A DNA stretch of 64,000 nucleotides from Rufibacter hautae. GTDB taxonomy: Bacteria; Bacteroidota; Bacteroidia; Cytophagales; Hymenobacteraceae. Positions 3,403 through 57,597 of the stretch are shown here, one piece after another. The notes beneath the pieces were generated by a model that did not search any database, was not told the origin of the DNA, and saw only the letters and a program-made list of their open reading frames with translations. Position 1 is the first letter of the stretch. Each line of letters begins with the position of its first letter. Location: the NCBI RefSeq assembly GCF_008271695.1, contig NZ_VKKY01000003.1, positions 558,001-622,000 of the forward strand, read 5' to 3'. Both the position numbers and the translations under genes were made by a program.

Positions 3403-3564
3403 TTTTTGTCATCCTGAAAGTACCTTGTGGGCGAGTTTGGAAAGCGGTGGATAAGAGCTTTGCTTTCTTTTTGGCCCATATTCGATAAATCAGCCCTAAA
3501 AGAGGTCTTCACTTTTAGCAACGGCTTATCTGGTTTGCCCACAAGGTCCTTGCAGGATGACAAA
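3403..3564. repeat. Inner-type inverted repeat (TGTCATCCTG family), copy 3
   Basis: Left arm begins TTTTTGTCATCCTGAAAG (3403-3420) and continues CCTTGTGGGC. The right arm (3533-3564) has GCCCACAAGG and then GGATGACAAAG. The arms match the inner arms of the composite elements at 5.9 and 57.4 kb. A degenerate 36-nt palindrome lies between them. Confidence 0.7.
3467..3502. repeat. Degenerate copy of the 36-nt palindromic repeat
   Basis: CTTTTTGGCCCATATTCG followed by ATAAATCAGCCCTAAAAG. It sits inside the larger inverted repeat at 3403-3564. Confidence 0.5.
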
Positions 3565-4649: not shown

Positions 4650-5786
4650 CTACGCGCTACGTGATACGAGCGCGGCGAACGCTTCTAAGAATCTATCCAA
4701 CTCGGCCTGTGTTACGTTCAGGGCGGGCAAAATACGGATGGTGTTTTTGTTGGACGCGGAGCCGGTGAAGATGCGGTACTCGTCTAGCAGGGCTTTCCGG
4801 AGGGGAGCGCAAGGGTTTTCCAGCTCGATGCCTACCATCAAGCCTTGTCCGCGCACTTCTCGCACGCCGGGAATTGCTTTGGTTTTCTCCATGAGGTAAT
4901 CGCCCATAGTAGCGGCGTTCTCCACCAAGTTCTCCTGCCCTATCACTTCCAATACCGCCAAAGAAGCAGCGCAGGCCAGGTAATTGCCCCCGAAGGTGGT
5001 GCCTAGCATACCGTGCTTGGCCGGAATTTCAGGGGAAATCAACACGCCCGCCACCGGAAAACCGTTGCCCATGCCCTTGGCGATGGTAATCAGATCTGGT
5101 TTGATGCCTGCATGTTGGTGCGCGAAGAATTTACCGGAACGTCCGTAACCCGACTGAATCTCGTCCAGAATCAGCAACGCGCCGTGTTTCTTGGCTAGTT
5201 TTTCCAAATCCTGCAGAAAGGGCACGGTAGGAATATTCACACCACCCACGCCCTGGATGCCTTCCACAATAATGGCGGCTACCTCGTTCGTGGCTAAAGC
5301 TTCTTCCACTGCGGCGGCGTCATTGAGCGGCAGGAAAAGGATGTTCTCGGTCTCGTTCACCGGGGCCACAATGCTACGGTCATCTGTCGCCGCTACTACC
5401 GCCGAGGTTCTTCCGTGAAACGACTTGCTGAATGAAATCACCTTCTTGCGGCCCGTATGGAACGAGGCCAGTTTCAGGGCATTCTCATTCGCCTCCGCGC
5501 CGGAGTTGATCAGGAACAGCTGGTAATCTTCGTAGCCGCTCAATTTACCCAACTTATCCGCGAGTTCCTGCTGCTGCGGAATCTTCACAGAGTTAGAGTA
5601 AAAGCCCATGTTGTTCAGCTGCTCGGTGAGGCGCTGCACATAGTGCGGGTGGCTGTGGCCGATGGAAATCACGGCGTGACCGCCGTACAAATCCAGGTAC
5701 TCGGTACCGTTCTCGTCCCAAAGCTTAGAGCCGAGGGCCTTCACGGGCGTTATGTCAAAAAGGGGGTAAACGTCAAAGAGGTTCAT
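4650..5786 (-). CDS. argD: N-acylornithine aminotransferase
   Basis: PLP-dependent class III aminotransferase converting N-acylglutamate semialdehyde to N-acylornithine. 378 residues from the ATG at 5786 (MNLFDVYPLF); a GTG four codons upstream is less likely. Visible: NSGAEANENALK, LDEIQSGYGR, and the PLP-lysine segment TIAKGMGNGFP. The last codons (VSRSA, stop) are read from a simple-sequence stretch, CGTATCACGTAGCGCGTAG, that continues past the stop, so the C-terminus appears to have been rewritten by repeat DNA. A 365 bp spacer holding a composite repeat separates it from argC. Confidence 0.92.
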   Translation of the reverse strand: MNLFDVYPLFDITPVKALGSKLWDENGTEYLDLYGGHAVISIGHSHPHYVQRLTEQLNNMGFYSNSVKIPQQQELADKLGKLSGYEDYQLFLINSGAEANENALKLASFHTGRKKVISFSKSFHGRTSAVVAATDDRSIVAPVNETENILFLPLNDAAAVEEALATNEVAAIIVEGIQGVGGVNIPTVPFLQDLEKLAKKHGALLILDEIQSGYGRSGKFFAHQHAGIKPDLITIAKGMGNGFPVAGVLISPEIPAKHGMLGTTFGGNYLACAASLAVLEVIGQENLVENAATMGDYLMEKTKAIPGVREVRGQGLMVGIELENPCAPLRKALLDEYRIFTGSASNKNTIRILPALNVTQAELDRFLEAFAALVSRSA

Positions 5787-5826
5787 AGTCGGTAGCACGT
5801 ATCACGATACACGTAAAACGATTTCT

Positions 5827-5860
5827 GTTTTAAGTCGATATTTCAGGAAAACCGCAAAAC
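5827..5860. repeat. Copy of the 36-nt palindromic repeat
   Basis: 34-nt copy, GTTTTAAGTCGATATTT then CAGGAAAACCGCAAAAC. Preceded by ATTTCTG, as in the copy at 46890. Confidence 0.55.
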
Positions 5861-5887
5861 GGCTTTTCCTGAGTTCTGTTTCAATTG

Positions 5888-6090
5888 CGCTGGCGCGAGC
5901 TTGCTGCTCGTTTCCGCACGCACTTTAGATCATTCTTTTTGTCATCCTGAAAAAATCTTGTGAGCGAACGATAACGGCATTTTTCTGCTGCTTTTCTAGT
6001 TTGCCCACAAGATCTTTCCAAGATGACAAGAGTGGGGAATCAACACTCTCAGCCATGTGTGCGGACACGAGCGGGTCGCTCGCGCCAGCG
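5888..6090. repeat. Composite nested inverted-repeat element, copy 1 (203 bp)
   Basis: The outer ends are inverted: CGCTGGCGCGAGC (5888-5900) pairs perfectly with 6078-6090, and the similarity continues inward through TCCGCAC to about 35 nt per end. Nested inside is a second inverted pair (5936-5970 and 5998-6032) built on TTGTCATC and CACAAGATC motifs. No coding capacity. A second full copy is at 57350-57597. It resembles a REP/MITE-type non-autonomous element and occupies the argC-argD spacer. Confidence 0.8.
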
Positions 6091-6110
6091 GAGCCTTAGT
6101 AGCTGTTTTC

Positions 6111-6144
6111 GTTATCAGCCCGTTTTTTGAAAACAGTCCGAAAG
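6111..6144. repeat. Copy of the 36-nt palindromic repeat
   Basis: GTTATCAGCCCGTTTTTTG then AAAACAGTCCGAAAG, between the composite repeat and the argC stop. Confidence 0.6.
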
Positions 6145-6151
6145 CGTAAGC

Positions 6152-7144
6152 CTAAAACCCGATGGCTTTCAACTGCAAGCCAGCCCTTTCGTCCAGCCCG
6201 AACAGCAGGTTCATGTTCTGCACGGCCTGGCCCGAGGCACCTTTCAGCAGGTTGTCAATCATGCTGGTGATCACCAGTTGGTCCTCGTGCTTCTCTAGAT
6301 ATAGGAGGCACTTGTTGGTGTTTACCACCTGTTTCAGGTCTGGATTTTGAGATGTGATGAGGGTGTACGGGTGCCCTTCATAGAACTGCCGGTATAAATG
6401 CTGGGCTTCTTCCAAGCTCAAATCAGATTGTAAATAGGTCGTACACATGATGCCCCGGCTGAAGTTTCCGCGATACGGGACAAACCTGATAGCTGGTTTG
6501 GCATCAGCTTGCAGCAATTGCAGGCTTTCCGTAATCTCGTGCAGGTGTTGGTGCCCAAACACCTTGTAGCTGGAGATGTTGTTGTTGCGCCAGCTGAAGT
6601 GTGAAGTCTCGGCTAATTTCTGTCCTGCGCCGGTAGAACCTGTGATACCGCTTACGTGTACTTCCTGTGGCAAAGAGCCGTTCTGCGCGAGCGGGAGTAA
6701 GGCCAGTTGGATAGCCGTAGCAAAGCAGCCAGGGTTTGCCACGTTAGCGGCGGTTTTAATCTTCTCACGGTTCAGCTCAGGCAAGCCGTACACGAACTGA
6801 CGATTGTCAGAAGTAGACTTCGCTGTTAAGCGGAAATCCTGGCTTAGGTCAATAATCTTTACTGTATCCGGAATAGGGTTAGCATCCAGAAACTTTTTCG
6901 CATCACCGTGGCCTACGCAGAGGAACAGAGCATCAACATTGGTGCCCAGTTCGTTGGTGAAGACCAGATCAGTGTCACCTAACAGATCGGTGTGGGTGTC
7001 GGTCACGGGTTTACCGGCCTGGCTGTTGCTGTGCACAAAGCTGATGTGTACGTGCGGATGGTGCACCAGCAGCCGAAGCAGCTCACCACCGGTGTAGCCT
7101 GCTCCGCCCACGATGCCCACTTTTATAAGATTACTCTGCGCCAT
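6152..7144 (-). CDS. argC: N-acyl-gamma-glutamyl-phosphate reductase
   Basis: NADPH-dependent reduction of N-acylglutamyl phosphate to the semialdehyde, third step of arginine synthesis. 330 residues. N-terminal GxxGxxG motif GIVGGAGYTGGELL (about 10-23); catalytic cysteine in NPGCFAT (Cys140); the HQHLHEI and FVPYRGNFSRGI segments complete the family pattern. Its ATG overlaps the end of argG by 14 bp, so the two genes are translationally coupled. Confidence 0.94.
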   Translation of the reverse strand: MAQSNLIKVGIVGGAGYTGGELLRLLVHHPHVHISFVHSNSQAGKPVTDTHTDLLGDTDLVFTNELGTNVDALFLCVGHGDAKKFLDANPIPDTVKIIDLSQDFRLTAKSTSDNRQFVYGLPELNREKIKTAANVANPGCFATAIQLALLPLAQNGSLPQEVHVSGITGSTGAGQKLAETSHFSWRNNNISSYKVFGHQHLHEITESLQLLQADAKPAIRFVPYRGNFSRGIMCTTYLQSDLSLEEAQHLYRQFYEGHPYTLITSQNPDLKQVVNTNKCLLYLEKHEDQLVITSMIDNLLKGASGQAVQNMNLLFGLDERAGLQLKAIGF

Positions 7145-27825: not shown

Positions 27826-27855
27826 GCCCACAAGATCCTTTCAGGATGACAAAAA
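27826..27855. repeat. Half copy of the TGTCATCCTG-family arm
   Basis: GCCCACAAGATCCTTTC followed by AGGATGACAAAAA. This is a single right arm, without a recognisable partner except a possible CTGTCAT at 27811. Confidence 0.6.
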
Positions 27856-57349: not shown

Positions 57350-57597
57350 GCTGGCGCGAGCTTCCAGCTCGTGTCCGCACGCATTTCTGAACGATTAATC
57401 CCGATTTGTCATCCTGAAAGGACCTTGTGGGCAAACTAAATAGGCGTTGAAGTAAGCGCTATTAAAGTTGTCTCACAAGATCTTTCCAAGATGACAAAAG
57501 AGGGGGAGGCTTTGATAGGCCAGAAAGCTTAATTTCTGAAAAGCAGGAAAGAACCATCTGGAATGCCTGCGGACACGAACCAGAGGCTCGCGCCAGC
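57350..57597. repeat. Composite nested inverted-repeat element, copy 2 (248 bp)
   Basis: GCTGGCGCGAGC (57350-57361) pairs with 57586-57597. Both ends continue with GTGTCCGCAC/GCGGACAC. Inside lie the TTTGTCATCCTGAAAGG arm (57406-57422) and its inverted partner (57468-57500). Same architecture as 5888-6090 with a longer right spacer. Confidence 0.8.

Follow-up and report, generated by a model that had tools for sequence, protein, structure and literature searches.

A noncoding composite of two palindromic repeat families in Rufibacter: a RAYT-type inverted pair that may carry a separate REP dimer

The nested inverted repeat between the argC and argD genes of Rufibacter hautae is a composite of two repeat families, each of which also lives on its own. 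We regard it as probably a noncoding mobile element, in which an outer inverted pair of the RAYT (REP-associated tyrosine transposase) type carries a separate inner REP dimer. A more specific reading, a composite REP transposon in which a CGTC-like dimer with no transposase of its own rides inside a RAYT-driven inverted pair, has the balance of evidence just barely on its side. The novelty is small but well defined: the composite joins two families with a largely fixed polarity, and only one of the partners is linked to a transposase. The window referred to throughout is the whole 64,000-nucleotide stretch analyzed (G000:C3:558001-622000), which comes from a 5.84-Mb genome in 8 contigs.

Two composites, neither assigned to a strand, were located in the window by a repeat finder and by pattern. 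Copy 1 (positions 5888 to 6090; 203 bp) is the short form and is intergenic between two minus-strand genes that we take, following the naming in a preliminary description of this DNA, to be argC (6152 to 7144) and an argD-like gene (4650 to 5798); the protein of the former has 88 to 93% identity to Rufibacter and Sabulibacter sequences among the best nine loci. Its outer REP arms, at 5888 to 5922 (plus strand, 1 mismatch to the pattern) and 6056 to 6090 (minus strand, 0 mismatches), are 35 nt long and 83% complementary by the repeat finder, which returned only this pair; the TGTC-tagged inner REP arms of type A (5940 to 5962, plus) and type B (6006 to 6028, minus) were placed by pattern. Copy 2 (57350 to 57597; 248 bp) is the long form. 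Pattern matches put its outer arms at 57350 to 57379 (plus) and 57568 to 57597 (minus), with inner arms of type A at 57407 to 57429 (plus) and type B at 57474 to 57496 (minus), while the repeat finder gave outer arms of 58 nt (57350 to 57407 and 57540 to 57597; 74% complementary) and inner arms at 57405 to 57437 and 57466 to 57498. The preliminary description had reported outer ends of about 35 nt around an inner inverted pair and the same architecture with another interior length at the second site, and both observations are confirmed as real. The window also holds a lone type A inner arm (27829 to 27851, minus; exact pattern match) and an unstranded 156-bp inner-type dimer without outer arms (3407 to 3562) between argB-like and argF-like genes. 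The latter is a second inner-type dimer in the same arg gene cluster, and composites occupy its site in genomes G042 and G006.

The outer arm has the approximate consensus GCTGGCGCGAGC-N5-GCTCGTGTCCGCACGCATTCCTGAT and a small hairpin of its own; the inner arm approximates TGTCATC(C/T)TG(A/G)AA(A/G)GATCTTGTG. With up to 3 mismatches allowed, pattern matching in the window gave 4 outer and 7 inner arms, compared to 0.00 of each expected from 100 shuffles. Genome-wide, the same threshold yielded 48 outer arms (24 forward and 24 reverse) and 66 inner arms (33 and 33), with 0 matches to the reversed control of either. Clusters drawn from 52 regions around arms and from the two window copies numbered 57—15 composite, 16 outer only, and 26 inner only—and these totals were identical at up to 4 and up to 5 mismatches. 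Both outer arms were present in 11 of the composite clusters and one in the remaining 4. With up to 5 mismatches allowed, pairs made up 9 of the 16 outer-only clusters (spanning 92 to 130 bp) and 15 of the 26 inner-only clusters, the others being single arms. The nest had been described as one kind of element; its assignment to the mobile-element type stands, but it is made up of two repeat families that also live apart.

Evidence from congeners ties the outer arms, which are REPs, to RAYTs of a single clade. A total of 45 Y1_Tnp matches were found in 15 of the 16 genomes of the genus. Among 40 distinct Y1_Tnp loci scanned for arms, those from the protein search included, six had outer arms, all in congeners: on both sides of the gene at L258, L259, L263, and L344 (where the gene is broken), and on one side, within 1.5 kb, at L272 and L273. 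A tree of 25 proteins groups the RAYTs of L258, L259, L263, L272, and L273 in a single clade (SH-aLRT 100); 5 of 30 loci were left out of the tree as giving no protein by the motif test, and the L258 protein was cut at its stop. L263 scores 94.9 against NF047646 REP_Tyr_transpos (cutoff, 80), and L344 (G045) is a broken relative of this type, with 68 to 72% identity in pieces. RAYTs of the L263 type (77 to 100% identity) occur in G006, G032, G042, G063, and G051, the last with one stop in the gene. The preliminary description had proposed a REP/BIME- or MITE-type element whose movement depends on a transposase gene at another locus, perhaps of the RAYT kind; with outer arms adjoining one RAYT clade in five congeners, that interpretation is supported as right in kind.

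Outer arms are also more numerous where this RAYT is present. At up to 2 mismatches, the five genomes named above have 63, 84, 67, 27, and 69 outer arms, respectively, and the other eleven have 42 (the window's own genome), 21, 8, 7, 4, 3, 2, 0, 0, 0, and 0 (27 to 84 versus 0 to 42; P = 0.0015, Mann-Whitney test, uncorrected for kinship). A family survey at this threshold found the outer arm in 37 of 200 genomes. The protein search of the window's genome returned no RAYT of the outer-arm clade, its two RAYTs being 54% identical to that clade, and the window copies are therefore probably immobile relics. The two resident genes, L031 (G000:C1:1295932) and L032 (G000:C2:189439), were rejected as probable movers of the outer arms, since their ends are different and outer arms are absent from the 1.5 kb around them. 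Each has its own hairpin ends, and a genome-wide search allowing up to 3 mismatches counted 14 copies of the CAAGTTTGAGCGAAGCGGTAACTTG arm.

The outer pair resembles REPINs and BIMEs with RAYT (PMC3116915) in its two inverted REP hairpins, variable spacer, and adjoining Y1 gene in some genomes, and it shares the trend reported for Escherichia coli, where REPIN copies are more numerous when a RAYT is present (PMC8049555). It differs from REPINs in having no GTAG at the hairpin foot, the arm starting with GCTGGCGCGAGC, and in that some pairs enclose a complete dimer belonging to another, unrelated family of REPs. The L263 protein is similar to RAYT subclass 2.6 (group 5) of Bacteroidetes (PMC6006769): a length of ~180 amino acids, the motifs WQ and YIH[QN]NP (FWQQ and YIHQNP in L263), and occurrence in Bacteroidota. 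In both, "atypical secondary structures" that recur at other places in the genome lie to either side of the gene, whereas L263 has SHVH compared to NH[LIV]H in that subclass (PMC6006769). Judged by its motifs, the outer-arm RAYT appears nearest to subclass 2.6.

The inner family is of a different kind. Its unit is ~89 bp long and joins two REPs with tags outward, in most cases a type A REP (CCTGAAAGG) with a type B REP (CTTGGAAAG). In an alignment of 25 dimers with type A placed first, the tag occupies columns 1 to 4, with TGT invariant and C at ≥90%, and each monomer has a 5-bp stem and a 3-nt loop (91.6% of cells paired), with CTTGTG after the stem. The local hairpins contain 4 double-change cells, a count reached by 1 of 500 shuffles (45 of 500 by pair number). 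The long-range stem of these dimers showed no covariation above chance, and at two of its column pairs 21 of the 25 dimers are unpaired; unlike the local hairpins, it was rejected as a conserved structure on that account; the conserved object of the inner family seems to be the monomer hairpin. A pyrimidine-rich tract of ~12 nt upstream of the tag is alike in 26 arms near an outer arm and 38 free arms. Inner arms were found in all 16 Rufibacter genomes (15 to 110 arms each) and in 61 of the 200 genomes of the family survey, both at up to 2 mismatches. None of the 40 Y1_Tnp loci is flanked by inner arms on both sides, and a RAYT for the inner arms was therefore dismissed; those near Y1_Tnp were a pair on one side at L270 and a single weak arm (5 mismatches) at L256. 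Since G017 keeps 62 inner arms with 0 outer arms and 0 Y1_Tnp matches, the inner family persists without the outer one.

The closest comparison for the inner REPs is with CGTC-class REPs, which are reported from five phyla and as having no dedicated transposase (PMC3733652). Shared features are the TGTC tag, a stem whose first two pairs are A-T and T-A, dimers in which the tags face outward, the occurrence of heterodimers, and no association with a transposase (here, Y1_Tnp). However, the inner REPs have a stem of 5 bp and a loop of 3 nt rather than 8 to 9 and 4 to 5, CTTGTG after the stem rather than a 3-nt, mostly CCA tail, and a pyrimidine tract upstream (PMC3733652). Given these departures in stem, loop, and tail, we call the inner pair CGTC-like and do not file it as a member of the CGTC class. 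Searches of the open-access literature returned nothing on repetitive extragenic palindromic sequences of Rufibacter or on the inner-arm 15-mer, and the composite was absent from titles and abstracts among the listed matches on RAYTs, REPINs, and Bacteroidetes.

The two families most likely spread as a unit, with the RAYT-type repeat carrying the inner dimer in what would be transposition. We compared 34 composites with both outer arms from 23 sites in seven genomes, which are only a sample of the relatives' total. The polarity count omits 8 of the 34, which a simple motif test classed as A/A or B/B, as well as composites whose spacers differ by less than 5 nt. In A/B composites, the longer spacer lies on the type B side in 14 of 15 cases at a difference of ≥20 nt and in 21 of 23 at ≥5 nt; by site, the counts are 12 versus 1 (P = 0.003) and 16 versus 1, with 1 mixed (P = 0.0003), the exceptions being L378 (G042) and L349 at the L139 site, both opposite. 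Similarity among the long spacers was 14.8, compared to 8.4 when shuffled (standard deviation, 0.2), in a set of 14 sequences, among them 2 pairs of orthologs and the recently copied pair of G051. Largely fixed polarity and similar long spacers point to few origins and favor joint copying over repeated insertion. The half-pattern of the composite, counted by exact match as a lower bound, was confined to the seven genomes with ≥20 outer arms, a distribution that is weak alone because few outer arms mean few chances for composites.

Individual copies lead in the same direction. The G051 composites L357 and L363 (250 to 253 bp) are recent copies of each other: they are 97.2% identical, the match stops at the outer arms, and the flanks are unrelated. 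In G042, the members of another pair share 84% identity over 237 bp, and here too the match does not extend beyond the composite. G032 has an empty site at the position of L357, with flanks that are ~80% alike, and another composite lies past the neighboring gene. Several points speak against spread as a unit driven by the RAYT. The 97% pair could reflect gene conversion, as the L363 site holds a composite in the window's genome too (L103); the G051 RAYT has a stop codon; and sites turn over, with the argC-argD inner dimer accompanied by an outer relic in three relatives.

If inner dimers preferred the loops of existing palindromes, nesting would reflect target choice by independent insertions and not co-mobility. 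REP dimers within palindromes are known in other bacteria (PMC3733652): CGTC-1 dimers of H. neapolitanus lie inside longer palindromes, although the enclosing palindrome was not found alone there, unlike the encloser here, a RAYT-linked family that also lives alone. Also in line with independent insertion, a third palindromic element in the genus encloses the outer pair, spacers differ between short and long composites, and polarity is opposite at one site and mixed at one. Yet the 16-to-1 polarity and shared long spacers would be unexpected, as would near-identical whole composites at unrelated sites, and the flanks of the 26 free inner loci gave no sign of an outer relic, so that the inner family needs no outer-pair targets. 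We consider this alternative distinctly unlikely. Nor do the same 26 loci (16 dimers and 10 single arms) look like decayed composites: their flanks scored 7.3, compared to 7.8 for the incorrect orientation and 8.8 for positions far away, in a check that had no positive control.

Orthologous sites in relatives include some without the inner part and some without any recognized element. Between argC and argD, inspected by eye in 10 species, a composite is present in the window and in R. latericius (L147) and is degenerate in L146; L145 and L151 have outer arms only, L148, L152, and L153 have an inner dimer with an outer relic, L150 has a different repeat pair, and L149 has none. At the 57350 site, among 16 genomes, the window and G006 have a composite and G027 a degenerate outer-only form; the remaining 13 yielded no recognized element, and in some of these the downstream gene is a different one. 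The orthologous flanks are too diverged for reading a target duplication or an exact empty-site junction. To our knowledge, IS200/IS605-type enzymes leave no target duplication.

Interiors thus change at old sites, and they differ between species at argC-argD, the 57350 site, and others. This would be expected if exchange between outer arms, by homologous recombination or by gene conversion, had been spreading interiors among old sites since transposition ended. Such exchange would leave unexplained why a site is occupied in one genome and empty in another (L357 versus G032) and why outer copy number corresponds to the RAYT; as a full account we think it unlikely. It is compatible with mobility of the composite and not exclusive of it, and gene conversion possibly accounts for part of the similarity among composites.

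A conserved RNA or DNA regulatory hairpin selected in the arg operon, such as an attenuator or mRNA stabilizer, would be a third explanation. As RNA, the 203-nt copy folds very strongly (−107.3 kcal/mol; z = −11.8; 0 of 200 shuffles as low), the local hairpins show compensatory changes, an inner dimer, free or nested, is present at argC-argD in 6 of 10 species (the window counted), and clusters are rare between divergent genes (38 tandem, 17 convergent, and 2 divergent, with 0 inside ORFs as crudely called). On the other hand, the 57 clusters lie in many other places, the long-range stem lacks covariation above chance, and the argC-argD element is missing in L149 and replaced by the other repeat pair in L150. 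A known RNA family was rejected after a search of four loci against Rfam 15, which gave nothing at the gathering score and no match of any kind in L001 or L010, the loci of the two window copies. Selection as a regulatory hairpin therefore seems very improbable, although the composite may influence arg mRNA. The preliminary description had noted no obvious terminator T-run in copy 1; this holds, because the sole terminator-like match in 5780 to 6180 is on the plus strand, in the reverse orientation to the arg genes, against an expectation of 0.5 from shuffled sequences. The 14 subthreshold Rfam matches all fell in L147, where a strong inverted repeat of R. latericius (1689 to 1771) matched microRNA families on both strands; presumably these reflect merely a long palindrome.

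For the preferred reading, a mobile composite, we envisage the following course. The outer inverted pair would be REPIN-like and belong to a REP family linked to RAYTs; a single-strand (HUH, Y1) transposase would recognize its hairpins, copying the DNA between them. An inner dimer of the separate TGTC-tagged family would have ended up between the outer arms and been copied thereafter as their cargo, the RAYT doing the moving and the inner part being its passenger; the window's genome would later have lost its RAYT. If true, this provides one concrete route for moving orphan CGTC-type REPs, and riding inside a RAYT-mobilized pair would account for part of the spread of CGTC-class REPs. It also suggests that a RAYT-copied unit can reach ~250 bp with a foreign dimer inside.

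Nesting in the genus extends to the third palindromic element, whose arms read GGTTCAAGTC.. and CTGCAGTTTGTAACTGCAG. It encloses an outer pair at L114 (G000:C1:1833573 region) and, in relatives, at L351 and L358, and in G051 and G042 the nest has three levels, with this element outermost.
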